A DNA stretch of 64,000 nucleotides from a virus, in the IMG/VR virus record IMGVR_UViG_3300025168_016729, positions 1 through 64,000 of that record; one strand, written 5' to 3'. Under the pieces are notes generated by a model. The model was not told the origin of the DNA. It was given only the letters and a program-made list of their open reading frames with translations, and searched no databases. The translations under genes and the position numbers were made by a program. Each line of letters begins with the position of its first letter. Position 1 is the stretch's first letter. This document shows, in pieces, positions 40,044 to 63,203 of the stretch.

Positions 40044-40205
40044 TTATTCTTCAATTTTAAAAGTTGGAGGATTAGAAACAAATACCTCATCATCTTTAAC
40101 TTCTAAGTCCCAATTACGTAAAAGTTCAGTAATGTCTTGTTCTTCCGTAAGACACTTTTGTAAAGTCATCAGAAGGGTCCCTACGGCTTGGTTTGATAGT
40201 TTCAT
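40044..40205 (-). CDS. Small 53-residue conserved phage protein
   Basis: A short frame starting at the ATG at 40205, which overlaps the TAA of gmd (TAATG). The sequence [19 protein letters not shown], then EEQDITELLRNWDLEVKDD and a PP-T-F ending, resembles a small protein I recall from many T4-like marine phages. It is acidic and helical at first, then a short beta end. Strong coupling with gmd and a tidy fit to the gap support it. Function unknown. Confidence 0.72.
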   Translation of the reverse strand: MKLSNQAVGTLLMTLQKCLTEEQDITELLRNWDLEVKDDEVFVSNPPTFKIEE

Positions 40206-41191: not shown

Positions 41192-41212
41192 AATTCATTT
41201 TACACTTAAAAT

Positions 41213-43306: not shown

Positions 43307-44220
43307 TGGTGTATCTCCACAAAAAATTCACATTCAAAGCGCCCAACATACTCAGACCTGTGATCTTCTAAAAAATTTTCTGATTTAGGGGACGCCAATA
43401 CCGTGTTTATTTCCTGAATAACCAGATTTAAATATTCAGTAAATCCATCTCTCCAGTGGGGTCTATATTCTTTTCTTGTCATCTCTAGAGATCCATGAAG
43501 GTCGGGTCCAACTGGTTTTATCCCATAACTTAGACTTTTAGTCCTAGGGTGGGAAAATAAAATTCCCCACAAGGCAGGAGGAAACAGATTAGTAACACCT
43601 TTTTTACCAGCCCATTCTGCCGTCACTCTTAAAAAATTTAGGGATTTCTCATTATCCTCATTGGTCAGGTTATCTTGGTATCCATATCCTGTTATTTCCT
43701 GGTTCAAATAATAGGCAGGGTGGGTGGGAAGAGCCATTTGTGTTCTAAGAAGAAGTAATGAATTGCAAGAATCATATATCATTTTGATAATATCGTATGG
43801 CTGAGGGAGGTAACATAAAGTACTATCCATAATACAAATATCATATTTCATAGAGGGTTTAAACTCTGCTATATTCTTTTCTATAAACTTTACATTTTTA
43901 TTTACTTTAAAATATTCTCGTCCTGTTTTTATGCAGGTAGAATTTATGTCTACCACTGTATAAGAAAAGGGAATGTTTTTGAAAATTTCTTTTTTTAAGA
44001 AATGGTACTTGCGGCCGTTGCCGCCGCCTATGTCAATAACTGATATTTTTTCTTTTTGTTTTGAAATTTCTAAAATATATTTCTTGAATTCTTGATCAAT
44101 TTTTGTACTGCTTATTAAAGTCTGAAGTGGGTAATCTACCGTATCGTACCCCAACTCTTCGGCGGTGTTGGGGTCGGACCATATTTTATTATTTAATGCA
44201 TCATATACATTATCATTCAT
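43303..44220 (-). CDS. SAM-dependent methyltransferase (class I-like)
   Basis: A 305-residue protein with a Rossmann-type SAM motif VIDIGGGNGRKYHFL (about 61-75), an acidic strand end in YTVVDINSTC and a post-II motif around YDICIMDSTLCYL. It overlaps both neighbours by ATGA within the sugar cassette, so it probably methylates a sugar or a glycan terminus, but the substrate cannot be read from the sequence. The C-terminal half (PPALWGILFSHPRTKSL) looks family-specific. Similar proteins occur in polysaccharide clusters. Confidence 0.75.
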   Translation of the reverse strand: MNDNVYDALNNKIWSDPNTAEELGYDTVDYPLQTLISSTKIDQEFKKYILEISKQKEKISVIDIGGGNGRKYHFLKKEIFKNIPFSYTVVDINSTCIKTGREYFKVNKNVKFIEKNIAEFKPSMKYDICIMDSTLCYLPQPYDIIKMIYDSCNSLLLLRTQMALPTHPAYYLNQEITGYGYQDNLTNEDNEKSLNFLRVTAEWAGKKGVTNLFPPALWGILFSHPRTKSLSYGIKPVGPDLHGSLEMTRKEYRPHWRDGFTEYLNLVIQEINTVLASPKSENFLEDHRSEYVGRFECEFFVEIHQ

Positions 44221-45311
44221 TTAAAAAATTCCTTAACAACACTAATAACTTTGCGTTGGTTTTCCTCTGTTAGGCTGTAAGATGAAGGAAGCGAAATTCC
44301 AGTGTCGTACGACAAAGTACTTTTTTTAAAGTTGTTTGAGTCTAGAGCTAAATTCTCATAACAAGGTTGCTTGTGAAGGGGGTAGAAAAAATCTCTAGTT
44401 TGAATGTTTTTATCAGCAAGAAATTTTTGTAGATCATTCTTGTGCTCTGTAAAATAAGAAGCAAACCAATGTACCGGCGTGATATGAGGCTTAAAACTTA
44501 GAGGATTAAGTTCGGAGATATGCTGTAACTCTCTCAAATATTTGGTACGAATTTGGTCTTTTTTATTTATAATTCTTTCCAGTTTGTTAAGTTGGGCTAG
44601 TCCAATCGCTGCTTGCATCTCTGTAAACGCAAAATTATAGCCTATGTGAGAATGAATAAAGACTCCCTTCTTGTCTCTCCCGTGGTTTTTTAAACGATAA
44701 CAGGAGGCGGCCAACTCATCATCGTTTGTAAGTACGATGCCGCCTTCTCCGCATGTGATTGTTTTATTCCCATAGAAAGATAAAATGCCTAAGTCACCAA
44801 ACGTTCCAACGTGCTGGTTATCATATTTAACTCCAACTCCCTGTGCTGCATCTTCTATCATGTATAAGCCATATTCTTTACAAATTTTTTGTAGCCTATA
44901 AAGATTAGCTGCTCCGCCATAAAGATGTACTGGCATTATTACTTTGGTCGCCGATGTTATGCTTTCTATGACTTTATCACAATTTAATCCTAAATCTTCT
45001 AAATTTATGTCAACCATTACTGGGGTGGCACCAGTCATAATTACCGCATTAGCTGTAGCGATAAAAGTCATATCAGGAACAATAACCTCGTCGCCGGGAC
45101 CTACCCCTAGAGATTTTAAGCAGCAAAACAAGGCTGCTGTTCCATTTGTCATAGAGACAGCGTGTTTGGACCCTGTTAGATCTCTAATCTTTTGTTCAAA
45201 TTCTTTTGTAAGATCGTGCTCAGTAACATAAGTGGATTCAATCACTCGTAATAACTGAACTCTCTCTTCTTCGCCAATCCACGGCTCAATCTGATTAATA
45301 AAGTCCGTCAT
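44217..45311 (-). CDS. DegT-family sugar aminotransferase, perosamine synthase-like
   Basis: A 364-residue PLP aminotransferase. K183 in SFYGNKTITCGEGG is the Schiff-base Lys, D154 in YMIEDAAQGVG binds the PLP ring nitrogen, and TNGTAAL forms the phosphate site. The motif around GNKTI and the segment GYNFAFTEMQAAIGLAQL resemble RfbE/PerA, which aminates GDP-4-keto-6-deoxymannose to GDP-perosamine. The substrate would again be the Gmd product. Other 4-keto sugars cannot be excluded. It overlaps the DUF6165-like gene by 17 bases and the methyltransferase by four. Confidence 0.85.
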   Translation of the reverse strand: MTDFINQIEPWIGEEERVQLLRVIESTYVTEHDLTKEFEQKIRDLTGSKHAVSMTNGTAALFCCLKSLGVGPGDEVIVPDMTFIATANAVIMTGATPVMVDINLEDLGLNCDKVIESITSATKVIMPVHLYGGAANLYRLQKICKEYGLYMIEDAAQGVGVKYDNQHVGTFGDLGILSFYGNKTITCGEGGIVLTNDDELAASCYRLKNHGRDKKGVFIHSHIGYNFAFTEMQAAIGLAQLNKLERIINKKDQIRTKYLRELQHISELNPLSFKPHITPVHWFASYFTEHKNDLQKFLADKNIQTRDFFYPLHKQPCYENLALDSNNFKKSTLSYDTGISLPSSYSLTEENQRKVISVVKEFFK

Positions 45312-45672
45312 AAGACTTCTGCTCTTGGATATTAGATTTGGCGTGAATATTAATCTTATTCTTTATAAGGAATCTCTTATCATTCAATTGGGCATCCAAG
45401 CGAGCATGTTTTACAAATTCATCCCCAAAATCATGGTTCTTTTCGCAATCACGAATAATATCCTCGGTTTCCCACAGGGTTAGATTAATTTCTTTCAACT
45501 CCTGTAGCATCTCTTGAGGAACAGAAACGTTATTCTCGTTGAGTCGGTGTTCCAATACACCTAATTCATGACGAACGTGTTTTAGTTTGTCTTCATCTTC
45601 AATTTTTTCTAACTTAATTTGCAAGATGGTGATTTTATCTAAAACTTCACCGATTGATACTTCTATTTTCAT
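45295..45672 (-). CDS. DUF6165-like small protein
   Basis: A 125-residue helical protein beginning MKIEVSIGEVLDKITILQIK, a start I recognise from the DUF6165 family. These proteins are found beside glycosyltransferase genes in capsule and O-antigen clusters; their role is unknown. The long heptad-like helices (KHVRHELGVLEHRLNENN and following) suggest a coiled coil, perhaps a scaffold for glycosyltransferases. Family name is from memory and should be checked. Confidence 0.65.
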   Translation of the reverse strand: MKIEVSIGEVLDKITILQIKLEKIEDEDKLKHVRHELGVLEHRLNENNVSVPQEMLQELKEINLTLWETEDIIRDCEKNHDFGDEFVKHARLDAQLNDKRFLIKNKINIHAKSNIQEQKSYDGLY

Positions 45673-46545
45673 TTAGTCACCTCTTAATAAATTTAGATGG
45701 TAGTCTATTTTTAAAAACTTATCTACGTTTTCCATATTATACGGTGTATTAGAAATTTGGTTAAATTTTTCTTCAGTAAGTTCATCCCATGTGTTTAGAA
45801 AAATTCCGGGTATATGATGATAAGAAAATAAATTGTATATGGTATTATGTAAGTTAATGGGAATAGTTCCTACTGCCAAACATTCGTAATTACGATGTAC
45901 ATCAGGACCAGACCCTTCCAGACAAATAACAAATTGATATTCATTCAATAGACTCATATATTCAGACCAGCCTAATTTATCTCTCTGGGTGTCTACAAAA
46001 GGCAATTTACTTAACATTTCAAAACACTTTTGTCGCTCCGGATTAGTGTTAAATGTATGATACGGTAAAAGAATCTTTTTCTTTTTATTTTGATGAGCAG
46101 TTGACTGCTCATTATGAGAAATAATAAGACTTTGATCGCCACCGGCTCTTTCTTTTTCTTCAAATCCAATTGGAAGAGGAATAATTTTATCATGCAAGAT
46201 ATCTGGAGGATTTGTACACGACCATTTTATAAGATTAGGATTTTGTAGTATCTGCTGATAAGATAAATCACCATTAGAGCCAATATGATAGGAAGATATG
46301 CCACTAATCAATTTAAAAGGATTTTTAATCTTAGGCAAGATTTCATTTTGAAAATAAGGATGAAAAATATAGTCAGTCTTTACATAAATTATATCACCCG
46401 CTTGTACGTCTGTTGGATCAAAATGATCCTTATTGTGTAGCCTGCTCACGCCAGCTTCTTTATAAAAATCATCCGAACGGTCTATTGCATGATCTGCAAT
46501 TGCTGGCATCCAGTTATAGAAGATATATGAGTTTTCATTAATCAT
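45673..46545 (-). CDS. Exostosin-like glycosyltransferase
   Basis: A 290-residue protein from the ATG at 46545 (a non-ATG start at 46605 would add 20 residues overlapping the gene upstream). The C-terminal half carries FVICLEGSGPDVHRNYECLA followed by VGTIPINLHN, the pattern of exostosin/GT47-type enzymes in which a sugar-nucleotide site contains a conserved Arg-x-Tyr-Glu. GGAG lies 11 bases before the ATG. No signal peptide or membrane segment, so it acts in the cytoplasm. Donor and acceptor unknown. Confidence 0.65.
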   Translation of the reverse strand: MINENSYIFYNWMPAIADHAIDRSDDFYKEAGVSRLHNKDHFDPTDVQAGDIIYVKTDYIFHPYFQNEILPKIKNPFKLISGISSYHIGSNGDLSYQQILQNPNLIKWSCTNPPDILHDKIIPLPIGFEEKERAGGDQSLIISHNEQSTAHQNKKKKILLPYHTFNTNPERQKCFEMLSKLPFVDTQRDKLGWSEYMSLLNEYQFVICLEGSGPDVHRNYECLAVGTIPINLHNTIYNLFSYHHIPGIFLNTWDELTEEKFNQISNTPYNMENVDKFLKIDYHLNLLRGD

Positions 46546-47248
46546 ATTTGATAATGCTCCATTTTTTAGTTGTATAATTACCCAAAGGCTGATTTCTAAA
46601 ATCATGATAAAAGATGTGATCTGTTTGTGCGTATAAATCTATGAGTGATTTAAAAGAACTCTCCATGCAATGAATTTCTTCCGCTTTTTCTAAAATCAAA
46701 AAGAAATGAAGAGCATTTTCAGTAATATCATTTTCAATAACAAGAAGATCAGGATTTAAAATATGTTTTCTATCAACCTTAAAGCCTCTACTCTCGTCAT
46801 CATGAACGAAAATAAACTTTTCGTTATTAGGGTTTAACTTACTTAAAACTCTCTCTTCTTCCTTTATATCTCTTTCTACATAAAACATATCTGTGCGTAC
46901 TTCATAAGGTATTTTTACCTGGTCATAGAAAAATTCCCAACAATTCTTATCGTACTTTTCTTCTTCCTCAAATGGATAAAACTCATGGCCAACTCTCAAA
47001 AAATGAGAACACTTACCCGAGTTGGCATATTCCGCTACCTGCTCATACTCGTCCTTATTACCATCAATTTTAACAACAATTATTTTGTCATTATCACGGT
47101 ACATATACTCAATCATTTCCCAATACTGGTGTTTAGAGAATATATGAACCTCATCAAATTCAGATTCCTTAAGAATATATCTAACCATCCCATTACAGTC
47201 AAAATGATCGCCTAGTCCCAGATGGTGATGAATGCATAAACTTTTCAT
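46538..47248 (-). CDS. Putative glycosyltransferase, GT-B N-terminal type
   Basis: A 236-residue protein. The N-terminus SLCIHHHLGLGDHFDCNGMV is a glycine-rich first loop like those of GT9/GT-B-fold transferases that I have seen in marine phage and cyanobacterial clusters. The C-terminal part (VIENDITENALHFFLILEKA then IHCMESSFKSLIDLYA) fits the sugar-nucleotide side of a GT-B fold. It is shorter than typical two-domain enzymes and may be a compact version. Overlaps the next gene upstream by ATGA-type coupling. Confidence 0.6.
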   Translation of the reverse strand: MKSLCIHHHLGLGDHFDCNGMVRYILKESEFDEVHIFSKHQYWEMIEYMYRDNDKIIVVKIDGNKDEYEQVAEYANSGKCSHFLRVGHEFYPFEEEEKYDKNCWEFFYDQVKIPYEVRTDMFYVERDIKEEERVLSKLNPNNEKFIFVHDDESRGFKVDRKHILNPDLLVIENDITENALHFFLILEKAEEIHCMESSFKSLIDLYAQTDHIFYHDFRNQPLGNYTTKKWSIIKYD

Positions 47249-48069
47249 AAGTATTCTTTCCCAAATGTCACTAATTCTTCTACATAATTATCTAAAATAT
47301 ATTGACGATAATTTTTCTGCTGCTCAAGATCATCATATACAGAACAATCAAACTCTATATCACCAATAATTTGTTTAGGGGTTTCCAAGGGCATGAAGTC
47401 TAAGTTATTAACAACCGGGTCATAACGATGATTTATAAATTCCGTTGTGTGTTTATAATTGTGAAATTCATAATGTTTGTACCACAGTTGTTTCAGGGCA
47501 TAAAATCTACGATTAACTGCCTGAAGGTGTATAATTCCTATATCCTTGGTGGCAGACTTAGGTAATGAAACTGGGGGTGTTCTTGGGGTATGATACTTCC
47601 AGTCATCCATGTTAAAATTACCAGTCTTATCCAAGGGTAAAATAAAGCTTCTAAAGTTATTCACATATTGAGGATCTTGTCTTGTTTGGGTCAATGTATT
47701 GTTAACAACATTATACCAATACAAATGCCAATCCACTGTTTCGTACAAAGAAATAATTTGAGAGAAATTATCCACTAAATTAGCCGACAAAAGTTCGTCA
47801 CAATCAAAACATATTACATGACTTGCTTTATTTTCTCGGCTATATTCTAGCATCTTTGACCGGTTGTATGATTCGTGAAACTTATCTAACTTATCATTTA
47901 GGATGATGGCTCGCGAGCCTAAATGCTTCTTAATAATGTTTACCGTATCATCCGTAGAATTATCGTTATAAAAAACAAATTTTTCTAATGGATATTTTTC
48001 CCATATCGGCAGAAGAGCACTCAATAAAACCTCTTCGTTTTTTACCATTATGTTTCCATGAACATTCAT
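47245..48069 (-). CDS. Glycosyltransferase family 2-like (GT-A)
   Basis: A 274-residue protein with a GT-A layout: GNIMVKNEEVLLSALLPIWE at the start, FVFYNDNSTDDTVNIIKK (the donor-base loop), and the metal-binding DxD in VICFDCDELLSA (about 92-98). This is typical of GT2 or GT92-like enzymes that use a nucleotide sugar. A His-rich region (IGIIHLQAVNRR) may form the acceptor side. Overlaps its neighbours by ATGA. The donor may be one of the GDP-sugars made by this cassette. Confidence 0.75.
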   Translation of the reverse strand: MNVHGNIMVKNEEVLLSALLPIWEKYPLEKFVFYNDNSTDDTVNIIKKHLGSRAIILNDKLDKFHESYNRSKMLEYSRENKASHVICFDCDELLSANLVDNFSQIISLYETVDWHLYWYNVVNNTLTQTRQDPQYVNNFRSFILPLDKTGNFNMDDWKYHTPRTPPVSLPKSATKDIGIIHLQAVNRRFYALKQLWYKHYEFHNYKHTTEFINHRYDPVVNNLDFMPLETPKQIIGDIEFDCSVYDDLEQQKNYRQYILDNYVEELVTFGKEYL

Positions 48070-48761
48070 TTCTTTTCATCCCGGCTATTATTATAAACAT
48101 CATCAAAAAATTCGTCTGCATCCAGAATCTTATCATTGCCGGCATATGCCTGTCCTATAAAATGATTAGCGTCACGGGGATGAGAATAAGGAAAAGTTGG
48201 CTCGCCATAATGGTTTCCAAAAAATTCATCATGAACAAAAACATTACCTCGTACAAGTGGGTAGATTTTTTCTCTTAAAAAGTTTTGATCAACTTGCCAA
48301 AAATCACCTTTAGAGTACTCGTCAATATAATTCTTCATATGTTTTAGGAAAGGATTTCTAACTCCCCACATGCCGCCTAAGATTTCCGTTGCATGATAAG
48401 GGTGATCACGCATTATATGAAAATCTTTATCACTTTCCAGCCACTGCTGAACCGCTAAAACCTCTCTAGTTGTTGGTCGGCTATCTACATCTCTACAGAT
48501 CATAACATCAACATCTGGATCAGATGCGTCTTCAAATCGCCAAAACATTCCTTTCCAATTACACTCTTCGGTTCTTAAAATTAGTTCAGTATTATTAAAG
48601 GAATTTAAAGTTTCTATAATCTTTATTGGAGTTGAATCTCCAATATGAAATCTACATACCCAATCTTTATACAATCTTTGAGCAAGCTCTACATTTCTGA
48701 TAGCGCCGTCAGTATAGCGTGTATCATCGCCCCATAGTGAGTATGAAATAATTTTTTTCAT
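48066..48761 (-). CDS. Glycosyltransferase-like protein (GT-A, DxD)
   Basis: A 231-residue protein beginning MKKIISYSLWGDDTRYTDGA, a start seen in small GT-A-type proteins of polysaccharide clusters. VMICRDVDSRPTTREVLAVQ carries a DxD-type metal site with a following Arg. YSHPRDANHFIGQAYAGND lies near the end. No membrane segment. I recognise the general pattern but not a specific family. Coupled with both neighbours, so it acts in the same glycan pathway. Confidence 0.65.
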   Translation of the reverse strand: MKKIISYSLWGDDTRYTDGAIRNVELAQRLYKDWVCRFHIGDSTPIKIIETLNSFNNTELILRTEECNWKGMFWRFEDASDPDVDVMICRDVDSRPTTREVLAVQQWLESDKDFHIMRDHPYHATEILGGMWGVRNPFLKHMKNYIDEYSKGDFWQVDQNFLREKIYPLVRGNVFVHDEFFGNHYGEPTFPYSHPRDANHFIGQAYAGNDKILDADEFFDDVYNNSRDEKK

Positions 48762-50374
48762 TGTTCAAATATATCCCGGAATCTGTTTAAAATTTCTTGT
48801 TCTTCTAGAGTCTTTTTTTGATGATTTTCCGGTGAAGTACTCAAGCCCTTGGGGTTGAAATAATATAGGCCTAAAACTTGAGACACTCGTTTAAATACAC
48901 TACCAGACTTTACACACCTCAGCCAAAATTCTAGATCACCAGCAGAGCTATATTTTTCATCAAAATATCCATATCTTTCATGAAGATCTTTTTTCCACAA
49001 AGGCATACACCCAGGCAAACATTTAAACATTAGTTTAGGATCATATTCATGGGTTTCAAAAAGTTGACGACTTTTGGTAGTATAAAAAGTTTCATCCGCT
49101 TGCCCAGTTATGAGAAAAGCAGGATAGACTAAATCAATTTCAGAGGAAGAAGTAATTTCTTTTAAGCACAATTCTAAATTATCATATGATCGGCAGTCAT
49201 CTAAATTAGCGTTTGTGATATATTTTGCTGAACTATTCTTTATTGCTATATTCCAAGCTCCATATACGCCTGGATCTACTTCTTGATAGTAATAAATAAT
49301 ATTAGGATATTTTTCCATATATTTATCAATAACTGTCTTTTCATAACTGGTTTCTGTTTTATTGCAGTCTACTAAGATTAATTCGCATTTAGAAAATATG
49401 GTTTGTTGAGTAATTTCGTTTAAAAATTTATCTATAAATTCCGAACCATTATATACCGAAGTTATAATTGATATTTCTGGATTCTGAGAGACAAAAGAAT
49501 TAGAATGGGCGTCTGAAGAATTGGAATTTACTAGTTCACAGATTTCCGCTAATTTCTCTCTTTTGTGAGTGATAACTTCTTGTAATAATATTTCTTGATC
49601 AGAATAAGTATACTTTTCATTTATAGCCCCTACCATATCATTTGTTATAACTTTACACCCCGCTAATTTTGCCTCCATAAAAATCCGAGAAAAAGTTTCT
49701 GGACTAGATGGTAAAAATGCAAAATATTCGTACTGTAGCAGTTTTTCAAAGAGACTATAAGGGTCTGGTTCGGAAACCAAGTCATATTCTAAATTATTTT
49801 CCTTACAATAGTTTTCAGCAGCGAGTTGACCCTTTATAGGATTATCGCTCTTCATAATAGCTACTTTAGGATGGCGTAAGATATTTTCCGAAATCTTACT
49901 CTTTACATTATCTAAAAAATGGTCGCTCCAAAATGACCCACCCATGTTATACAGGTTGTTAAAGAGAGGTAAATTTTTAGTTACAATATCTACGTGGTAT
50001 TGTGATTGACAGCATACCCTTGTTGCATTTTTGTACAAACTTTTATATACTATTTGATTTTCGGGTACTTTAAAATTAACATACTTTGCAGGGTTTCTAT
50101 TTGAACAATATTTGTGATCATGTTCATAAATCAAGTAGTTTAAGGATTCTAGTTTTTCTATAGCATCAGCGGGAACCGACAAAAAACTTCCTAAGATAAA
50201 AAAACAATTTTTTCTTGTCTGCAAATATGCTGGCGTAATCTTAAAACCATGTACTTCTTCTACATTAAGTCCATTATTGCGCAGATAGTTTACTATTTCT
50301 TTATTTGCAAGTTCTGCGCCGCCTTGTGGGATTTCTTCCACAAAACCATCAGCTACAAAAACAACATCCACCAT
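48758..50374 (-). CDS. Two-domain glycosyltransferase (GT-B plus GT2)
   Basis: A 538-residue fusion. Residues 1-290 look like a GT4-type domain (FVADGFVEEIPQGGAELANK, HPKVAIMKSDNPIKGQLAAE, LPSSPETFSRIFMEAKLAG with the E-x7-E-like sugar-nucleotide segment). Residues about 300-538 form a GT2 domain (EISIITSVYNGSEFIDKFL, CELILVDCN, ITNANLDDCRSYD, SAGDLEFWLRCV), with the donor-binding loop, a DxD-like site and the ExW-type acceptor motif. One polypeptide could add two sugars in turn. It overlaps the gene downstream by ATGA and is one base from the one upstream. Confidence 0.75.
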   Translation of the reverse strand: MVDVVFVADGFVEEIPQGGAELANKEIVNYLRNNGLNVEEVHGFKITPAYLQTRKNCFFILGSFLSVPADAIEKLESLNYLIYEHDHKYCSNRNPAKYVNFKVPENQIVYKSLYKNATRVCCQSQYHVDIVTKNLPLFNNLYNMGGSFWSDHFLDNVKSKISENILRHPKVAIMKSDNPIKGQLAAENYCKENNLEYDLVSEPDPYSLFEKLLQYEYFAFLPSSPETFSRIFMEAKLAGCKVITNDMVGAINEKYTYSDQEILLQEVITHKREKLAEICELVNSNSSDAHSNSFVSQNPEISIITSVYNGSEFIDKFLNEITQQTIFSKCELILVDCNKTETSYEKTVIDKYMEKYPNIIYYYQEVDPGVYGAWNIAIKNSSAKYITNANLDDCRSYDNLELCLKEITSSSEIDLVYPAFLITGQADETFYTTKSRQLFETHEYDPKLMFKCLPGCMPLWKKDLHERYGYFDEKYSSAGDLEFWLRCVKSGSVFKRVSQVLGLYYFNPKGLSTSPENHQKKTLEEQEILNRFRDIFEQ

Positions 50375-50375
50375 A

Positions 50376-51635
50376 CTAAACTACCTTTATTTCGGTGTTA
50401 GTATTATCCCAATCTTTCTTGTTATTATAAACATCAGCACAAATACTACCAATTTTATCATATTGTTCTTTTTCAGAAAATTTCTCTTTGAGATACGTCT
50501 GTAAAGTTGCGGCTATATTTCTTTTTGCTATGTGAGCATTTACCATATTTCTCATAGCCTTTTTAGAACTATTCATATCACAGTGGGCCCACTTCATATC
50601 GGGAAACAAAATATTGTCCATTACTGCACCTTCACCTATTTCCTTAATATCACATCGTATTCTTTCATACATGTCCTTAGATTTTTTACCTTGACCAATC
50701 TTAAGAAAATCTAAATGTCCCGACCATCCCGAAACACACACAGGCATTCCACTATATGCAGCCTCAAAAATGGGTAAACCAAAGCCCTCGCCATGTGTAG
50801 TACTCACATAAGCATTAATCTGAGGATGGGTATATAAGCCATGGATTTCTTCTTCAGTCATAGATCCATGAATCCAGTGAATTTTACATTTTGCATCTTT
50901 AAAATTTTGACGGAGGGGAGAGAACAATTGTTTGTCTAACATCTGCCGATCAAATATAGAATTATTCGCATGATGTATTTTTGCTACTAATCCAATATTT
51001 TCATTATGAAACTCTTCCATAAACCAATGTAAAAGTTGTTCCACCCCTTTACGAGGAGAAATCTGAGATATCGTTAGGAAATTAAACTCGGTATCTAAAG
51101 ATATTTTATCTTCCAAAGACATAGGTGTAATAGATTTAACCGGATATCCCACTACATCAGAACTGGTTGAGATACCGGTTCTCTGAATGACAGAATTTGA
51201 ATTTTCTGCCTGAAGATTGAAAATGGTGTCAGTAAACCCTTTTTGAGAATGTTTACTGGTAAATATAATATGATCCATAGAATTAGATGGGTTAACCCAT
51301 GAAACAGGAATTCTGTCCGTCTCAATTCCAGCAGTTATACCTATATTGCAGTTTGATGGAAATTGTTGTGAATATGAATCCCATTCATTTGGTACCGTAA
51401 CCTGAATTACTAGGTCATAATCTCCTTTAAATAATTCTTTCTTTATCACCAGAGATTCATAGAGCTTAATATTCCTATCGTTATCAGAAATCCAACTAGA
51501 ATTACCCCAATGAATAGGATGAGCATGTAAATCAAAAACTTCAGGCTGACTATTCAGGGCATTAATAATAAACCGGCCGTGTTCTCCATATCCGCTACGT
51601 GTAAATAATGGTGAAATAACTAGAGTTCTTATCAT
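50376..51635 (-). CDS. Glycosyltransferase family 4/1-like (GT-B)
   Basis: A 419-residue GT-B enzyme. The N-terminal glycine loop is in LFTRSGYGEHGRFIINAL, the second domain begins at FNFLTISQISPRKGVEQLL, and the donor site is HGEGFGLPIFEAAYSGMPV with the E-x7-E pattern of GT4. No membrane segment. It overlaps the next gene upstream by ATGA and is one of two closely similar GT-B genes placed side by side. The donor sugar is not visible. Confidence 0.8.
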   Translation of the reverse strand: MIRTLVISPLFTRSGYGEHGRFIINALNSQPEVFDLHAHPIHWGNSSWISDNDRNIKLYESLVIKKELFKGDYDLVIQVTVPNEWDSYSQQFPSNCNIGITAGIETDRIPVSWVNPSNSMDHIIFTSKHSQKGFTDTIFNLQAENSNSVIQRTGISTSSDVVGYPVKSITPMSLEDKISLDTEFNFLTISQISPRKGVEQLLHWFMEEFHNENIGLVAKIHHANNSIFDRQMLDKQLFSPLRQNFKDAKCKIHWIHGSMTEEEIHGLYTHPQINAYVSTTHGEGFGLPIFEAAYSGMPVCVSGWSGHLDFLKIGQGKKSKDMYERIRCDIKEIGEGAVMDNILFPDMKWAHCDMNSSKKAMRNMVNAHIAKRNIAATLQTYLKEKFSEKEQYDKIGSICADVYNNKKDWDNTNTEIKVV

Positions 51636-52894
51636 AGTGTTTTTACCTCCCAGGAATTATAGTTTTTACGAGTTTCCCACGAGCCATTTTTATTATAAAT
51701 ATCAGTCATTAAGTCAACCCAATTTTTTCCAAAATCTTCAAAGTTATAATTCTTTTGAACATGTAAGCTTCCCTGCTTGCCTAACTCTGCTCTTTCTTTA
51801 GGAGACATATAAAACATCTTTTCTAAGGCAGCTACAAATTCATCCTCGTTTATACGATCTTCATAAATCCACGGAACATTCAAAGATCCGATAACCGCTT
51901 TGGAACTAGGCTCAATGCCGATGCCGAAATAATTCTCCCCATCGGTTACTTGCTCTTGTAGTCCACCCGTCATAGTTACAACAATAGGAGTCTGACATGA
52001 TAAAGATTCCAGTGTTCCTAATCCAAATCCTTCAGCATCCGAAATATTAACAGTAACGTCTGAAGCATTATACATCAATGATAAGTGTTCTGGTGAAACT
52101 TTTTGTGTTGAAAAAACAATCTGTCCCTTATTGAGACCTAAATGTTCTGCCACCACATGAAGTGGCTGACCGTGAGGATCATTAATATCAGTATGCATCA
52201 TCAAACACGCTTTGTCATGTCCAACTTTGTCTAAGAATTTTTTAAACCAAAAAATAAGAGATCCACTTTGCTTGCGGCGGGCATTTCTATTATTCCAGTA
52301 AAATATTACCTTATCTTCGGCTCCAATTTGTTTTCTCATCTCTGCCATATGCTGAAGAGATACAGGATCATCTAATTTTTTAAATATTTTAGAGTTAACT
52401 GCATGAGGAATATAGTGTTCCTCAACATCAGGCGAAACCGTCTGAACAATATCACTGGTTACTTTTGAAATAGTAGCTACAACATCCGTAGAATCGTACC
52501 AAACTTTATTATAGGTAGGATAAGGGTAGTTGTCCCAAACATGGTAATAAACCATAGTAACAGACTCTCTTATTTCGTCTTCCATCTGCCATAACCAATC
52601 ATAAAATCTAGGATCAGTCATGAAGTATAAAATATCAGGACGATGTTGTCGTAAAACTGACCTAATAAGATTTTGATCACCATAGGCATCTACCGGAAAT
52701 ATTTTCCAATTATCTTCCCACCCATCTACGATAACTGGAGTATAATCATTATGAGATATAGCCCCTCCTAGAGAAATTACCTCAAATCTTCCAGTTTTCA
52801 ATAGAGACTCTATAACATAGCGAGTCTGAGTACCAACACCCGAAGGAGATAAAGGATGATCACTAATTGTTAAGATTTTTATCTTTTTTGTCAA
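51632..52894 (-). CDS. Glycosyltransferase family 4/1-like (GT-B), first gene of the sugar cassette
   Basis: A 420-residue GT-B enzyme: SDHPLSPSGVGTQTRYVIES (acceptor-side glycine loop), IFYWNNRNARRKQSGSLIFW (start of donor domain) and DAEGFGLGTLESLSCQTPIV (donor site with E-x7-E). The start is TTG at 52894, justified by an excellent AGGAGG ribosome site eight bases upstream; no ATG fits. In transcription order it is the first gene of the 12.7-kb cassette. I see no separate promoter in the 12-base gap before it, so it is probably read through from the nuclease gene. Confidence 0.82.
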   Translation of the reverse strand: MTKKIKILTISDHPLSPSGVGTQTRYVIESLLKTGRFEVISLGGAISHNDYTPVIVDGWEDNWKIFPVDAYGDQNLIRSVLRQHRPDILYFMTDPRFYDWLWQMEDEIRESVTMVYYHVWDNYPYPTYNKVWYDSTDVVATISKVTSDIVQTVSPDVEEHYIPHAVNSKIFKKLDDPVSLQHMAEMRKQIGAEDKVIFYWNNRNARRKQSGSLIFWFKKFLDKVGHDKACLMMHTDINDPHGQPLHVVAEHLGLNKGQIVFSTQKVSPEHLSLMYNASDVTVNISDAEGFGLGTLESLSCQTPIVVTMTGGLQEQVTDGENYFGIGIEPSSKAVIGSLNVPWIYEDRINEDEFVAALEKMFYMSPKERAELGKQGSLHVQKNYNFEDFGKNWVDLMTDIYNKNGSWETRKNYNSWEVKTL

Positions 52895-53760: not shown

Positions 53761-54429
53761 TTAATAAACTTGATAATGATGTAGTTCATCAATTTTATCA
53801 TATAACATTGGGCTAATTTTTTCTAGGGCATCTCGCTTACCTAAATAATATGCCTCAAACCCAGTAGCAAAATATTCTCGTATGGAAACGGCGGCGTAAG
53901 GTCGGATAAATAAACCAGTAGTCACCATTCGTAACATATTTGTTCCTACCCTCTTATAGAGGAAGATATCAAATGACTGATCAAACTTTAATCTATCAAA
54001 ATCATATTCATTAACCCAGTAACCCTCAGACTGAAGTTCAAATTTAAGCTCACTTCTTTTCTTTAAAAATTCATTAATAAGAGATTCATCACTATAAATG
54101 GCCTCGGGAAATAAAGTTTCCATGTGATGCGCAAACTCATGCACAATATCGTCCATTAGGTCTTTGTTATTTTTTTGACGGTTTGTCATTTGTAAAACCT
54201 GGTCCCTATAAACCGCATTAACTCCTCTGCGATCAAACTCATCGTCATGTTGTATTTTAATTGCTCGGAGACCATGAAAATAATGAGTAGGAAAATTAGT
54301 TTCCAAAGTCTTTAAAATAGCCCCTAGATTAATATTATCAGGAAGAGCATCCAACTCAAGAACCTCAATTTTCCCAGAGCTAAAATTTTTAGTAGTGTTT
54401 TCTACTTTTTCTTTAATATAATTTCTCAT
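53761..54429 (-). CDS. Zinc metallopeptidase-like protein (HExxH)
   Basis: A 222-residue protein with an HExxH zinc site (H97-E98-x-x-H101 in DIVHEFAHHMETLF) and a downstream Glu-rich helix (SIREYFATGFEAYYLG, about 183-197) that would give the third ligand. This arrangement resembles the anthrax-lethal-factor-like (ATLF) fold as used in some phage and toxin proteins. No signal peptide, so it would act in the infected cell or be carried in the virion. The substrate is unknown. It overlaps PhoH by ATGA. Confidence 0.72.
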   Translation of the reverse strand: MRNYIKEKVENTTKNFSSGKIEVLELDALPDNINLGAILKTLETNFPTHYFHGLRAIKIQHDDEFDRRGVNAVYRDQVLQMTNRQKNNKDLMDDIVHEFAHHMETLFPEAIYSDESLINEFLKKRSELKFELQSEGYWVNEYDFDRLKFDQSFDIFLYKRVGTNMLRMVTTGLFIRPYAAVSIREYFATGFEAYYLGKRDALEKISPMLYDKIDELHHYQVY

Positions 54430-55733
54430 AAAATTTCGGCTGCCAGCGTGGCAAGTTTTGACCTTTCACCTTTATAAAGTGTTACATGACCAGAGATTTT
54501 GTATTCTTTAAATTTTTCAACAGCATGAGTAAGCCCATTAGAAACAGCATCTACATAAGAATTATCAATTTGTTGAATATCACCTGTAAGCACTAATTTT
54601 GTTCCATGTCCGACTCTAGTTATTATAGTCTTTAATTCGTGTGCTGTTAAGTTCTGGGCTTCATCTACAATCATAAAAGCATTGGAAATTGAACGACCTC
54701 TAATATATGTCATTGCTTCTATCTCTATTGTACCCTGCTCCATTTGCATGTCAAGTGCCATTTTGTCTCCAAATAAATATTCTAGATTATCTCGGAGAGG
54801 TGCAATCCATGGCATCATCTTTTCTTCTAGTGTTCCTGGCAGGAATCCTATATCTCGTCCCATTGGTTGAACAGGTCTGGTTATTATCAGTTTGTCGTAA
54901 CCACCTTGAGATTTAGTATTATGTAAAACTTGTTCCAACCCACATGCTGCGGCTATTAATGTTTTTCCTGTTCCTGCTTGGCCAGTTAAAGAAATTATTT
55001 GTATATCTTTATCAAACAAGAGATCCATTGCATATTTTTGTTCTTTATTGTTTGCGGTCAATCCCCATATATCTTTATACGTGTAGACTTTTCTCAAAGG
55101 AGTGTCATAATCAACAAAGCGACATAAGGCTGATTTCTTATCATCATTATCAGACTTTAATACCAAGTAATGGTTGGGATAAAGTTCAATCTTTTGCTCG
55201 GGTAGAAATATATCCTCATCTTCATAAAACCGCTCTATGATACTATCTTCTACTAAAAGTTCTGAACTTCCATCATAAAGTTTTTCTATGGATTTAACGG
55301 CTTGCTGAGGTTGGTAATCATAACATTCAATTCCAAAAGAATCACACTTGACTCTCATATTGAGGTCGCGAGATATAACCGCTACATCATGGCCCTCCAA
55401 TTGGAGGCGGATCGCGATCGCAATAATTTTATTATCCGAATCGGTCTGCTCCATTCCCGATGGCAAGTACCGAGGATCATATTGTGCTGCGAAGACCTTA
55501 CCCTTCCCAGTTCCCAAAGGAACACCAGAAAAAAGACTCCCCTTTGATCTCATTTTGTCCAGCAGACGGTTCATAGTGCGAGCGTTCAGACCAGCAGTAT
55601 CTTGGCGATGTTTGTGTTTATCTATTTCATCTAAAACAATTGTTGGTATGCCAATATTACTTCGCCCAAAGGAGAATAACGACTGAGGCTCTGTTAAATA
55701 TACGTTTGTATCTAGGATTAAAGTTTTATTCAA
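54426..55733 (-). CDS. phoH: PhoH-family ATPase with N-terminal PIN domain (PhoH2)
   Basis: A 435-residue fusion. Residues 1-140 are a PIN-type RNase domain (LILDTNVYL with D8, VLDEIDKHK, TDSDNKIIAIA, VISRDLN). Residues about 225-435 are a PhoH ATPase with Walker A GQAGTGKT (251-258), ITRPVQPMGRDIGFLPG and Walker B AFMIVDEAQN. PIN-PhoH proteins of bacteria are described as RNA-unwinding and cleaving enzymes. The start is TTG at 55733, with ACGGAAAAAC before it. Its neighbour is the tmRNA, which supports a link to RNA turnover; that link is inference. Confidence 0.9.
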   Translation of the reverse strand: MNKTLILDTNVYLTEPQSLFSFGRSNIGIPTIVLDEIDKHKHRQDTAGLNARTMNRLLDKMRSKGSLFSGVPLGTGKGKVFAAQYDPRYLPSGMEQTDSDNKIIAIAIRLQLEGHDVAVISRDLNMRVKCDSFGIECYDYQPQQAVKSIEKLYDGSSELLVEDSIIERFYEDEDIFLPEQKIELYPNHYLVLKSDNDDKKSALCRFVDYDTPLRKVYTYKDIWGLTANNKEQKYAMDLLFDKDIQIISLTGQAGTGKTLIAAACGLEQVLHNTKSQGGYDKLIITRPVQPMGRDIGFLPGTLEEKMMPWIAPLRDNLEYLFGDKMALDMQMEQGTIEIEAMTYIRGRSISNAFMIVDEAQNLTAHELKTIITRVGHGTKLVLTGDIQQIDNSYVDAVSNGLTHAVEKFKEYKISGHVTLYKGERSKLATLAAEIL

Positions 55734-55768: not shown

Positions 55769-55780
55769 CTAACGTAAAAG

Positions 55781-55802
55781 AAAAAAGCCGCCCGAAGGCG
55801 GC
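55781..55802 (-). terminator. Intrinsic terminator of the tmRNA gene
   Basis: On the minus strand GCCGCC, the loop TTCG and GGCGGC are followed by a T tract of six or more. The hairpin begins right after the encoded CCA end of the tmRNA. Confidence 0.92.
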
Positions 55803-56127
55803 TGGTGGAGGTAGGGAGAATTGAACTCCCGTCTTGTCTAGTTCCATAAAGCGGTCATTCACAAGGTTGTGTCTGTATTTATCGTCGGACAGACAACTTG
55901 ACTAGATCGTTTTATTGCGGCTAAAACAATCAAAAGCACTTGGGACTGCCTAATACGGCTTTCTGTTTATTGGCTGCCGTCGCCTCAAGAGTGGTCAGGT
56001 TATTAAGCCGCCATCTCCATGTTTAAATCGTTATTTGCGATTAAAAATTTAAGCGTTTTTAGTGAGCCACGCTTCCCTCACCCTTGCACCGTTTTTACTT
56101 CCCCATCAATCTATCCCGATTACCCCC
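55803..56127 (-). ncRNA. ssrA: tmRNA (transfer-messenger RNA), phage-encoded
   Basis: A one-piece tmRNA of about 325 nt for ribosome rescue. The 5' GGGGGTA pairs with TACCTCC before ACCA in a seven-pair acceptor stem with one G-U. The T arm is GGGAG-TTCAATT-CTCCC. Near the 5' end, GGATAGATTGATGGG stands where tmRNAs have the D-loop analogue. PK1 is visible: GTGAG with CTCAC, and GCGT with ACGC. The tag frame (56038-56006) reads GCA AAT AAC GAT TTA AAC ATG GAG ATG GCG GCT, then TAA TAA, giving ANNDLNMEMAA. The CCA is encoded. Flanked by phage genes, so not a host locus. No smpB is visible in the window. Confidence 0.96.
56000..56038 (-). other. tmRNA tag reading frame (ANNDLNMEMAA)
   Basis: Eleven sense codons from the GCA resume codon to GCT, then two TAA stops. 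The ending MAA differs from the common LAA; the final Ala-Ala recognised by ClpXP is kept. Adding the Ala carried by the charged tmRNA gives a 12-residue tag. Confidence 0.93.
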
Positions 56128-56137
56128 TTGTATAATA

Positions 56138-56166
56138 GTTATACACTATAACGAAACACTTGTCAA
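56138..56166 (-). promoter_or_regulatory. Sigma70 promoter of the tmRNA
   Basis: TTGACA (56166-56161), exactly 17 bases, then TATAAC (56143-56138), placed so that transcription would begin close to the tmRNA 5' end at 56127. The -35 box is a perfect match, so the host polymerase can read it early and strongly. Confidence 0.85.
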
Positions 56167-56210
56167 GTTATTTACTCTTTTATATATGCTAGCAAATTAA
56201 TAGTAGTAAA

Positions 56211-56245
56211 TGTAAGAAGTAGTAAGAAGTAGTAAGAAGTAGTAA
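56211..56245. repeat. Tandem 10-bp repeat upstream of the tmRNA promoter
   Basis: The plus strand has three copies of AGTAAGAAGT-type units in a row plus partial copies (minus strand ACTTCTTACT). It lies 45-80 bases upstream of the tmRNA -35 box. The period of about one helical turn would place any bound protein on one DNA face. It may be a regulatory or iteron-like site; nothing more can be read. Confidence 0.7.
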
Positions 56246-56276
56246 AAAAAGATAAGTTGTTTAAAGCTTGCAATTC

Positions 56277-56304
56277 ATTATAACGAAGTAAAAAAAAGTG
56301 TTAA
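56277..56304 (-). promoter_or_regulatory. Possible second sigma70-like promoter
   Basis: TTAACA (56304-56299), 16 bases, then TATAAT (56282-56277). It could give a longer tmRNA precursor that passes through the repeats. Weaker evidence than the proximal promoter, since the region is AT-rich. Confidence 0.4.
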
Positions 56305-56310
56305 GAGTGA

Positions 56311-57114
56311 TTAGGCAAATAAATCTAATTCTTCTGAATCACTGCCTGATGATGGGTCAGGAACCTCTGAATTTTCTTCCTCCTCTTCTTCTTTTTCTTT
56401 TTCATATTCGGGAGTGGTAGCATCGGGCAAATTAGATTGTAACTCATCTTCAAACTTATCAAAATATAATAACATATTTGTTAATAAATAATCATAGAAA
56501 AGATTCTTATCTTCTTCATCTGCTAACATATCATATGCATCCACAATTTGTTTTTCTACTTGCTTGAAAGTAGTGGCAGCAAAATTTCTTCCAGTTTCAT
56601 TTTGGTCTTTAATTTTTACAAATTCACTATCTTCATCTTCTCCATCAATACTGATAAACTCGCCCTCAATTGACTCTTCCTCATCACCATCGGCTTGAGG
56701 ATCTAAATTAATTGATACCTTTTCTGATAATAAATCTTTGTCAATATTAAACTCATAATTTTCAGGAAGTTTTTCAGCATCAGTATTTGCTTCAATAGGC
56801 CTAAGCGAGTTCTTTATCGCATGTATAATATGATTTCTGAAAGACTCTCTTTGTTCATCTGACGTCGTTAACATCTTATAATCATCTTCTATAACTGGAA
56901 TGATTTTCTCCAATAAGTTAGCTAAGACATTTATACCAGTAAACTCACTAGGCTCCTCTGTACCAGTTTCAGCCTCTAGGATTATTTTTCGCACAACATA
57001 ACGAATCTTCTGCTCAGCTAGATTTTTATGACGAACATTTTCACTGATTCTAGTTCTAATATGGGTACGAATTAACTCTTCAGCAATCATTTGGTCTCTT
57101 AAAATTGTAGTCAT
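56311..57114 (-). CDS. Acidic virion-associated protein with leader-like N-terminus
   Basis: A 267-residue protein from the ATG at 57114; a GTG at 57150 would extend it into the gene upstream. Residues 1-60 are basic and helical and include KIRYVVRKIILEAE, ending in I-L-E, like the other L/I-x-E leaders. The rest is strongly acidic, with NVLANLLEKIIPVIEDDYKM, FAATTFKQVEKQIVDAYDML and a Glu/Ser tail (EEEEEENSEVPDPS). A scaffold-like or portal-associated role is possible given the acidity, but I cannot name the family. I recall related proteins in marine T4-like phages. Confidence 0.7.
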   Translation of the reverse strand: MTTILRDQMIAEELIRTHIRTRISENVRHKNLAEQKIRYVVRKIILEAETGTEEPSEFTGINVLANLLEKIIPVIEDDYKMLTTSDEQRESFRNHIIHAIKNSLRPIEANTDAEKLPENYEFNIDKDLLSEKVSINLDPQADGDEEESIEGEFISIDGEDEDSEFVKIKDQNETGRNFAATTFKQVEKQIVDAYDMLADEEDKNLFYDYLLTNMLLYFDKFEDELQSNLPDATTPEYEKEKEEEEEENSEVPDPSSGSDSEELDLFA

Positions 57115-57124
57115 GGTAATATAA

Positions 57125-59119
57125 TTATCTCCGCCTTTGTCGTTTGGCACGTTTGACTTTTGGTTTGTTACTTTTTCTTTTTTGAGATTTAGGGAATGAT
57201 GGTTTCATACCCAAAGGCAGGCTATAACCCTGTACACTGCCGCCTGCCATGGATGACATTTCATCTATAGTTAAATCTACTAGATTATTAAAGGATTCAT
57301 TGGAAGTTCCAGTTAAGGAATTCCATACAGATTGTTTTTCTGGTTCTGATAGATGTATAGGCAGTTTAGAAATAAATTCATCTTTATTTTCAGATGCAAT
57401 TAGGTTCCGAAGAGTTGTTCCCCCCATTCCTTCTCCACCAATGACAGGGAAGACCATCTCTTCCACATTTACTCCAGGATTATGCATTTCTGCCCATGAT
57501 TGCGCCCTTGCATATCTTTTATCTCCTATATCTTTGTCACTTTTTCCGAGTACTACTGTATCCCCCTCAGAAAAAGAATTTTCATCTGCAATAAGATCAT
57601 ATACATCAGCTACAGGAGTTTTTCCTTCTTGTATTCTGATTTTAATATTATCATCACTCTGAGTATAAAGATCCCAAAGTCTTTTGGAGTCTTCGGCAGT
57701 TATGATAACCCTTGGGTCGTCTTTTGAAGCACGAGGTTTTTTTCCAATAATGACAATCACTTCATCAATATCAGATTCCGAAGATAGTTTTTTTGCAAGT
57801 CCATAATGTCCTGCGTGAGGAGGCTTGAATCCTCCAGGAAGTAAAGCCACTTTTTTACCTATTTTTTCTGTAATTATCTGGGAATTGAAACCAATATTTT
57901 CAGTGGTTAATTTTTTTCCTTTTTTTGGATAACGAAATATTCCTAAGATTTGATTAATCGGTGCAAAATTCCCAGCAAATTTATAAGTATGTCCGTCATA
58001 ATCAAAAACAACAGCCTCTACAGGAGTTGTGATATAAGAAAAATCTTTTATTTTATTGAGATGTCTCTGCATAACTGCCATAGCCTGAGGATCTTCTGCT
58101 CCAGAATCTGTGATTGCCTTTACAGCCACAGCCAATTCCTCTTTCTGTCTCTGTACCTCTTTTTTGCCATCGGCGATAAAAATGCTTTGAACACTTTCCA
58201 ATATAGCAACTGTAAAATCATGTACGGCCGTCTCTATAGGTAAAATAGCTTCCTGCAACAATGTTCTCTTATTGTTGACCAGAGATACTAATTCAGTTAG
58301 ATTTTGTTGGTTAAGTCCTTTTTTTAGTGCTTTGAGTCCAATATTCCCAGGTATTTTTAAAAGATACTTTGCAAGCTCTTTTTTGAGATTGGGTGACAAA
58401 TCATTATCAATGCCATTTACCAATCTTTGAAAAATAAATTCTTGAATCGTATTTTTATCCGATAAGCCTTCGGCAGCAAGTGCGCCGGATATTCTAGACT
58501 TAGCCTTATTTAGGGCAGTATCATTCTCAAGTCCCTTCAGATTTATAATAGCTTCACGAGCAAGGGAAAAATCATGGTCTTTTAAAGATTTTTGCATTCT
58601 ATTTAGGGCGTTATCCAATATCCTTAATATACCTTGAGGAATAGGTTTTTTATCGCCAGACTTTCGGTCAAAGACAAAGTGACCTACATTATGAATCTTA
58701 AGAGTTTTATTATCGTAGTTTATAACATTTCTAGATCCTGGATCCATGATCTCAGCATTGTACCAAATATTTGTATCTGGTCCGAAGATTCTTTCTTTTT
58801 CTTCGTCGGATAAAGCCTCTACAGCTTTTTCAAAGGCAGAGAAGCCCCCGCTAAATGCCTTTTCTAGACCTCCACGTCCTGCAAATTTTTGAGCAAGTTC
58901 GGTAGAATCTAAGCCACCTTTTTTTAGATTGCCTTTATTCCTTGCGCCCTTGGCTTTTCCTTCTGGTATTGAATAAGACAAGAACAGGTTTTGACCATCT
59001 ACTTTTTCTTCTGTCTTTAATTGACCATTAGATGCCGCATCCATTATTTCTTTCATTTTGGCAAAAGTTAAAGTAGGATTATCATAGAGATGATCCATAT
59101 GACCAGCAACACCACCCAT
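57125..59119 (-). CDS. RNA/DNA ligase-like nucleotidyltransferase fused to a cytidylyltransferase (HxGH) domain
   Basis: A 664-residue fusion. The N-terminal part has the covalent nucleotidyltransferase motifs: I, K39-V-D-G (TEEKVDGQNLFLSY); Ia-like, ARNKG (59-63); III, WYNAEIM with E123; IIIa, KIHNVGHFVFD; IV, VEAVVFDYDG with E368; V, TYKF with K380. A helical insert lies at about 160-360. Residues about 423-600 are an NMNAT/cytidylyltransferase domain with HxGH (H435-A-G-H438 in GGFKPPHAGHYGLA) and GGTTLRNLI in place of the ISSTxxR motif. The tail is very basic. It may seal RNA and use or make a nucleotide cofactor; the substrate is unknown. Confidence 0.8.
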   Translation of the reverse strand: MGGVAGHMDHLYDNPTLTFAKMKEIMDAASNGQLKTEEKVDGQNLFLSYSIPEGKAKGARNKGNLKKGGLDSTELAQKFAGRGGLEKAFSGGFSAFEKAVEALSDEEKERIFGPDTNIWYNAEIMDPGSRNVINYDNKTLKIHNVGHFVFDRKSGDKKPIPQGILRILDNALNRMQKSLKDHDFSLAREAIINLKGLENDTALNKAKSRISGALAAEGLSDKNTIQEFIFQRLVNGIDNDLSPNLKKELAKYLLKIPGNIGLKALKKGLNQQNLTELVSLVNNKRTLLQEAILPIETAVHDFTVAILESVQSIFIADGKKEVQRQKEELAVAVKAITDSGAEDPQAMAVMQRHLNKIKDFSYITTPVEAVVFDYDGHTYKFAGNFAPINQILGIFRYPKKGKKLTTENIGFNSQIITEKIGKKVALLPGGFKPPHAGHYGLAKKLSSESDIDEVIVIIGKKPRASKDDPRVIITAEDSKRLWDLYTQSDDNIKIRIQEGKTPVADVYDLIADENSFSEGDTVVLGKSDKDIGDKRYARAQSWAEMHNPGVNVEEMVFPVIGGEGMGGTTLRNLIASENKDEFISKLPIHLSEPEKQSVWNSLTGTSNESFNNLVDLTIDEMSSMAGGSVQGYSLPLGMKPSFPKSQKRKSNKPKVKRAKRQRRR

Positions 59120-61491: not shown

Positions 61492-61962
61492 ATGTTTGGT
61501 TTTTTAACCCTTAGAAATACATTATTAATTGTTTTAGCCCTCGTTTCTGGCGCTTCTTTCTACATTTATACGAAAGCTAACAGTGTACATCAAACTGTTA
61601 TTACCGGAAAGTCTACCTTTTATACTCCGGGACAACATGAAAACTGTAAATGGCTTGTTCATTTTAGTAATACCATAACTACCGAAGAAGGTGACACTTC
61701 TCCTGCTCAAATTGGTATACCAGAGATAATAAAAGATGGCTATATATCAGGAATTATTCAAAATGGACCCGGAAAGTCATTACTTTTAGCATTTAAAATC
61801 CCAACACAATCCGACAAGACACCTCCGATAGTATTAACATCCACATATACCTTAGAAGAATTGCCTCTTAAAACAATTTCTTTTCGTGTCTTCAATAGCA
61901 CAGCTATGAGAATGGTTCTATATTCCAGTCAAGAGAAATGTGTAGAGGCTACAATGAAATGA
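61492..61962 (+). CDS. Membrane-anchored hypothetical protein
   Basis: A 156-residue protein with an N-terminal membrane segment (TLLIVLALVSGASFYIYT) and a beta-rich domain of about 120 residues with two Cys (ENCKWLVHF and EKCVEATM) that could pair outside the membrane. A strong AGGAGG lies before the ATG. Its TGA overlaps the start of the MopE/VWA gene (ATGA), so the products are made together. Function unknown. Confidence 0.7.
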   Translation: MFGFLTLRNTLLIVLALVSGASFYIYTKANSVHQTVITGKSTFYTPGQHENCKWLVHFSNTITTEEGDTSPAQIGIPEIIKDGYISGIIQNGPGKSLLLAFKIPTQSDKTPPIVLTSTYTLEELPLKTISFRVFNSTAMRMVLYSSQEKCVEATMK

Positions 61963-63203
61963 AACGATTTGTTTTATTTTGTTTCCCTTTGATAGTAAGC
62001 GCCTGTATAGATCATGATGAATTAGTAAGACTTGAATGCCGACCTGGGGAAAAGCAAGTTTGCACCCCAGGTGGTGAAGCAATACCTTCACTGGATCCAT
62101 CAAATCCTCCTACACTATCCGGACAATGTAGATATGGATTAAGAACTTGTAACACCGAGGGGTGGGGTCTTTGTTCTGGAGGAGTTGGCAAAAGCGAAGA
62201 AGTCTGTGATGGTATAGATAATGATTGCGATGTCTTAATAGACGAAACATATCCAGAAGAACATCAGTTGTGCGGTTTTGTAGAAGGCGCTGATTATGGT
62301 GTTGGAATATGTACTCCCGGCGTAATGAAATGTGATAATGGCAATGTGTACTGTGACGGCCATGTTGGACCTGCTGAAGAAATCTGTGATGGAATAGACA
62401 ATAATTGTAATGGATCAACTGACGAAGGAATAGCAAATTCTACAGCTATTGTCTGTTATGAGGGACCAGAAGGAACAATGGCTATTGGTGCGTGTCGTGC
62501 TGGCGTTCGCTATTGTACTGATGGCGGTTTTAATGTGCCTTGCGATGGGCAGATTTTACCTACTATGGAGTTGTGTGATAATCTAGATAATGATTGTGAC
62601 GGTGAAGTGGATGAGGGTTTTGATAATCGTGGGGTAGATTTGGTTTTTGTTCTTGATATATCTGGTTCGTTTGATGAAGAGATAGAATCAATGATACAAG
62701 GAATCGCTCCGCTTTTAGACGACCCGATAACGAGCACATTTCGCTTTGGACTAGTTGCCGTAGGTACAGCAGGCAATGGTGAAATAAGACCTCCATATCA
62801 GCACGCTAGAATGGTCTCTAACTTTGTACCCGCAGATGAGTTCCTAGATATTCTAGAAGCTGCTAGAATGATCCAGAGTGCTGGACAAGAACCAACCATT
62901 GATACGATGTTCTGGACAATGCGTCTTTATCCATTTTCTTGGCGCTTTAATTCGCAGAAAGTAATAATAACAATGACTGATGAAGTTGCTCAAAGTGTTA
63001 CGGGAAGGGACTGTACAGAAATATCTATGATTGCCCAAGATGAATTTTATGAGCTTTTTGTTTTTGCTTTACAGCCACACCATAATACATTTTTATCATG
63101 TGTCCATGGGGAACAGAGAAGATTATTTACTCCCGCTGCAAATAGCGAGACTGTTTTTTTACAAATTAAAAGTATCTTTGAGGATCTCTGTATCGGAGAT
63201 TAA
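61959..63203 (+). CDS. Lipoprotein with three MopE-type metal-binding repeats and a VWA domain
   Basis: A 414-residue protein starting at the ATG at 61959 (MKRFVLFCFPLIVSAC, a signal peptide with lipobox VSAC); the longer reading from 61938 lacks a signal. Three MopE-type motifs follow: CDGIDNDCDVLIDE, CDGIDNNCNGSTDE and CDNLDNDCDGEVDE, Asp-rich Cys-pinned loops seen in secreted proteins of Myxococcota and related groups. The C-terminal half is a von Willebrand A domain with MIDAS start FVLDISGSFDEE and ITMTDEVA later. Such proteins bind metals and protein partners at the cell surface. It looks host-derived. Confidence 0.85.
   Translation: MKRFVLFCFPLIVSACIDHDELVRLECRPGEKQVCTPGGEAIPSLDPSNPPTLSGQCRYGLRTCNTEGWGLCSGGVGKSEEVCDGIDNDCDVLIDETYPEEHQLCGFVEGADYGVGICTPGVMKCDNGNVYCDGHVGPAEEICDGIDNNCNGSTDEGIANSTAIVCYEGPEGTMAIGACRAGVRYCTDGGFNVPCDGQILPTMELCDNLDNDCDGEVDEGFDNRGVDLVFVLDISGSFDEEIESMIQGIAPLLDDPITSTFRFGLVAVGTAGNGEIRPPYQHARMVSNFVPADEFLDILEAARMIQSAGQEPTIDTMFWTMRLYPFSWRFNSQKVIITMTDEVAQSVTGRDCTEISMIAQDEFYELFVFALQPHHNTFLSCVHGEQRRLFTPAANSETVFLQIKSIFEDLCIGD

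Follow-up and report, generated by a model that had tools for sequence, protein, structure and literature searches.

A complete, one-piece gene (ssrA) for tmRNA, which rescues stalled ribosomes and tags their incomplete products, was identified in a 64,636-base contig of a bacterial virus from IMG/VR, within the 64,000-nt stretch analysed here (hereafter the window). The gene (55803..56127, minus strand), its conservation, the constraint on its structure and reading frame, and its genomic setting are established by the comparisons described below. This tmRNA belongs to the known phage tmRNAs; what marks it out is its fixation throughout a clade, the varied end of its tag and the genes beside it. 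Taken as a whole, the best explanation is probably that of a working phage tmRNA that is charged by the host and loaded by SmpB, with ribosome release as the main benefit and disposal of the tagged products by Clp protease.

ARAGORN reported a single tmRNA in the window, 325 nt in length with its encoded CCA and carrying the tag ANNDLNMEMAA followed by two stops. The same span matched Rfam RF00023 over its full length (model positions 1-374) at 66.2 bits (E 1.4e-23), a modest score that is above the gathering score of 47 bits; 11 relatives scored 76-96.5 bits. Both ARAGORN and Rfam gave the unpermuted domain order of a one-piece molecule, and the two-piece permuted form was not encountered. 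The acceptor stem, T arm, CCA and pseudoknot PK1 are all present and all conserved among relatives. PK1 (56051..56081, minus strand; S1 GUGAG/CUCAC, S2 AAGCGU/ACGCUU) lies just 5' of the tag; downstream of the tag, where PK2-PK4 belong, three covarying helices were found, the knots not being separated one by one. Because a plain RNAfold prediction from the single sequence came out non-canonical, the structure was taken from the alignment. Every RF00023 feature that is decidable here is present in the window tmRNA. The initial annotation, which had read a complete phage-encoded tmRNA with an eleven-codon tag frame from the region 55781-56304, was therefore right as to span, tag and completeness, and the covariance model it had named places the gene proper above the family threshold.

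The gene is bracketed by its own putative control signals, all on the minus strand. A sigma70-type promoter (56138..56166) consists of TTGACA (56166-56161), a 17-nt spacer and TATAAC (56143-56138), with TG immediately ahead of the -10 box; of the 38 distinct relatives, 28 show the pattern TTGACA-17-TA. Farther upstream, at 56304-56277, there is another promoter-like match. At the other end, an intrinsic terminator (55776..55803) directly follows the CCA, with the stem-loop AGCCGCC-TTCG-GGCGGCT at 55803-55786, the first base of which is the last base of the CCA, and then TTTTTTCTTTT. Almost all relatives share the GCCGCC..GGCGGC arrangement and the T run. Both elements thus stand where they had first been read, including the 17-base spacing, and are kept in relatives. 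Twenty bp upstream of the -35 box there is a palindrome, TGCTAGCA (56187..56194), its sole occurrence in the window; it is found in 19 of the 38 distinct relatives, mostly at identical spacing, and is possibly a regulator or UP-type site. No riboswitch family reached the Rfam threshold in the window.

A search for relatives at the protein level, starting from the adjacent PhoH gene, yielded 53 viral contigs, and a close clade was defined by PhoH identity of 68% or more. Using ARAGORN, Rfam and a phage-tmRNA profile, a same-strand tmRNA was found 58-82 bp before the PhoH start in all 42 close-clade contigs that cover the site; beyond these, the ends of two further contigs (L009 and L010) fall inside the tmRNA. 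When the canonical structure was laid on 23 sequences, 95% of cells were paired and 21 pairs had changed on both sides, a covariation score that none of 500 shuffles reached, while slid controls paired 39-51%. The G3-U70 pair of the acceptor stem occurs in 23/23 of these sequences, the T stem is 100% paired and the CCA is invariant. PK1 hardly varies (S1 and S2 are 99% paired), so it shows conservation rather than covariation. A scan with the exact PK1 pattern matched 45 viral contigs and none of the cellular genomes in a species-genome collection. Together, conservation, structure, reading-frame constraint, promoter and terminator are good evidence of tmRNA function, as distinct from proof of expression.

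The tag frame (56000..56038, minus strand) comprises 11 codons followed by TAA TAA. Its resume codon, GCA, is preceded by UAAUC; the UAA a few bases ahead of the resume codon is invariant in the aligned relatives, as is the A equivalent to A86 of E. coli, which is needed for setting the tmRNA frame (PMC2481249). The frame is kept across 38 relatives, with synonymous changes: the codons for Ala1, Asn2, Ala10 and Ala11 vary synonymously only, and the stop is TAA in all 38 tags. The Ala-Ala end is likewise invariant, which fits degradation by Clp since the contacts made by ClpX include the C-terminal Ala with its carboxylate (PMC7652416). The residue before it is Met in 13 tags, Gln in 15 and Leu in 10, making MAA one state of a variable position. 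The initial suggestion that the MAA ending might redirect tagged proteins gains no support here. In the tmRNA tree all Gln and Leu tags fall inside one branch (support 97/100) and the Met tags outside; within that branch there were repeated changes between Gln and Leu, the latter encoded by three different codons, and as many forks of the tree are weak the number of these events is uncertain. One relative (L041:3607-3933, IMGVR_UViG_3300009129_001478, the same contig as L070 and L143) has the sequence GCA GCT TAA and hence a tag of Ala-Ala only, apparently derived from a duplication of the tag end; it is possibly a release-only tmRNA, or an assembly error.

The flanking genes had been described as phage genes, and the neighbourhood agrees with this in part. 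Next downstream of the tmRNA is a PIN-PhoH (PhoH2-like) RNase/RNA helicase gene (54426..55733, minus strand; PF13638, PF02562), in whose product D8, E36, D100, D123 and the ATPase motifs are invariant among relatives. It scored 303.7 bits against NCBIfam NF053827 (RNA 5'-3' helicase PhoH2), under the curated cut-off of 680, and is therefore called PhoH2-like by its domains rather than an orthologue of that family. On the upstream side is a 279-aa ORF (56311..57150, minus strand) with no match in PHROG or Pfam. A T4-type baseplate wedge gene occurs elsewhere in the window, and relatives in the clade carry gp23, TerL and an S77 prohead protease; the relatives are T4-like environmental phages of a little-described group. 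Other parts of the window include one 3385-aa ORF amid large probable tail genes (16591-26748, minus strand) and a run of genes for nucleotide-sugar epimerases, aminotransferases, a methyltransferase and glycosyltransferases (40205-52894, minus strand) that amounts to a phage-borne surface-sugar pathway. There is also a 421-aa ORF with MopE-type metal-binding motifs and a VWA domain (61938-63203, plus strand), one of few likely genes on that strand.

The clade is without a near relative among deposited phages. Neither the tmRNA nor a 14-kb stretch had a nucleotide match there, a distant search giving only short pieces, and by terminase the isolates that come closest are Flavobacterium phage immuto (44.8%) and Microcystis phage Mel-JY01 (43.9%). 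The scanned parts of these two genomes (for immuto, those outside 150,001-160,410) yielded no tmRNA. A host assignment by way of the PK1 pattern or a phage protein was attempted against cell genomes, and neither gave a match.

SmpB was not found in 16 clade contigs of up to 190 kb, which implies that the phage tmRNA would use the SmpB of its host. A ClpP-like protein is encoded in 12 of the same 16 contigs, about 40 kb from the tmRNA; the four in which it was not found, including the 64.6-kb source record, are all among the five shortest. The 200-aa representative at L127:13253-13855 matched ClpPs of known structure at 4e-18, in an alignment that includes the catalytic Ser, His and Asp, and fell below every NCBIfam cut-off for ClpP and for head proteases. 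Its best PHROG was head maturation protease, a role we disfavour because these genomes also encode an S77 prohead protease, near gp23 and TerL in the head cluster. A full-length phage GroEL (L127:7798-9384) lies a few kb from the ClpP-like gene. Two distant phages (G017 and G021) have 290-nt tmRNAs with the tags ANEDVEFESYALAA and VNDDVEFESYALAA (14 residues), located at L145:9577-9866 (ANEDVEFESYALAA) and L144:4656-4945 (VNDDVEFESYALAA), in a neighbourhood that also has PIN-PhoH; in both, the tmRNA is just upstream of ClpP, which follows 0.8-0.9 kb downstream on the same strand. In several other distant relatives with ClpP, no tmRNA was found in the contigs, nor did a scan of the final 50 kb of LR756511, whose ClpP is the most similar among phage records, reveal one. 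Gene order and co-occurrence suggest a possible working link between PhoH2, tmRNA and ClpP; the ClpP of the clade could also serve ends other than disposal of tmRNA-tagged products.

From these observations we infer how the RNA is made, charged and used together with SmpB, what becomes of the tag, and how PhoH2 and ClpP might be connected with it. The gene very probably encodes a functional tmRNA that relies on the SmpB of its host. It would be transcribed from its own strong promoter and then trimmed to the CCA, after which host AlaRS would charge it with alanine by way of G3-U70, and host SmpB would load it on ribosomes stalled on truncated mRNAs. Translation would resume at GCA, add (A)ANNDLNMEMAA and stop at UAA, with the ribosome recycled. 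The tagged peptide would most likely be degraded by a Clp protease in which host ClpX is paired with the ClpP of the host or, possibly, of the phage. The main gain for the phage would be that ribosomes are kept free while mRNA is cut during infection, perhaps in part by the neighbouring PIN-PhoH2 protein. There is precedent for such a benefit in lambda immP22, which requires only the ribosome-release step of tmRNA and not degradation (PMC2481249). The strong promoter fits with the tmRNA of phage Wildcat, the most highly expressed lytic gene of that phage (PMC7474061). With its own promoter and terminator, a phage tmRNA that supplements ribosome rescue, as had been proposed at the outset, is plausible. 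A point against a working tmRNA would be incompatibility with the SmpB or AlaRS of the host, which may exist.

The pathway of rescue and disposal might be run by the phage throughout, such that PIN-PhoH2 cuts mRNA, the tmRNA frees ribosomes and tags the products with a phage-specific degron, and phage ClpP with host ClpX disposes of them, the Met, Gln or Leu being tuned to this end; we regard such an extension as doubtful. We also feel it is unlikely that the tag itself is what is selected, with the phage tmRNA outcompeting that of the host and endings such as ...MEMAA or ...LAQAA giving stalled products a different fate, whether they are turned over more slowly or handed to a protease assisted by the phage. 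Most of the clade does have a residue other than Leu ahead of Ala-Ala, with several changes at this position, the large relatives have a ClpP-like protease of their own besides the S77 head protease, and the tmRNA directly precedes ClpP in two distant relatives. However, Ala-Ala-stop never varies, Met is a conservative change, and Leu recurs, so that ordinary ClpX recognition may be favoured; moreover, the contigs of several distant relatives have ClpP without a tmRNA.

A decoy function, in which the RNA would tie up SmpB or ribosomes of the host and so inhibit host rescue, in the manner proposed for tRNA-like-domain-only (TLD-only) molecules such as that of phage DS6A, seems very unlikely. 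TLD-only molecules do inhibit tmRNA (PMC4131195), and the tag shortened to Ala-Ala-stop in L041 might be seen in this light, but a decoy has no need of a full mRNA-like domain, PK1, a resume signal and a selected eleven-codon frame, and ribosome release would be expected even of the L041 form. Least credible is a passenger gene, a bacterial ssrA that the phage picked up and that serves it in no selected way. Such capture has been proposed as a route by which phages obtain ssrA (discussed in PMC9004378), but the gene is kept in every relative that covers the site, with compensatory changes, synonymous drift in the tag and a conserved promoter and terminator, and its PK1 occurs in no cell genome of the scanned collection.

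The reading of a working, ribosome-releasing phage tmRNA can be set against known systems. Phage tmRNAs have been reported from ten phages (PMC4131195) and, in a larger survey, from 402 of 18,146 phage genomes (PMC9004378), in agreement with the initial annotation, which had called them known but uncommon. Mycobacteriophages Bxz1 and Wildcat and Bacillus phage G likewise have complete tmRNA genes on their genomes (PMC4131195, PMC7474061); those are other phages with other hosts, whereas the present tmRNA is fixed beside PIN-PhoH2 in a T4-like environmental clade. The Methylophilales phage Melnitz is likewise an aquatic (marine) myophage with a tmRNA under its own control, but that tmRNA is a two-piece permuted molecule with a glutamine riboswitch (PMC9004378), unlike the one-piece molecule with promoter and terminator described here. 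With bacterial one-piece tmRNA, as exemplified by E. coli ssrA, the window tmRNA shares P1 with G3-U70, PK1, the resume signal, the AA end of the tag and the encoded CCA. The E. coli tag is ANDENYALAA, whereas the window tag ends in MEMAA and those of relatives in LAQAA or LALAA.

Phage tmRNAs have mostly been reported genome by genome; here a whole clade carries one at a single fixed place. The clade therefore provides a comparative series, in which the tag end varies naturally and the tmRNA has an RNase-helicase gene beside it and a ClpP-like gene in the phage genome, and in which one can ask what a phage gains from a tmRNA of its own: the release of ribosomes or the tagging of proteins.
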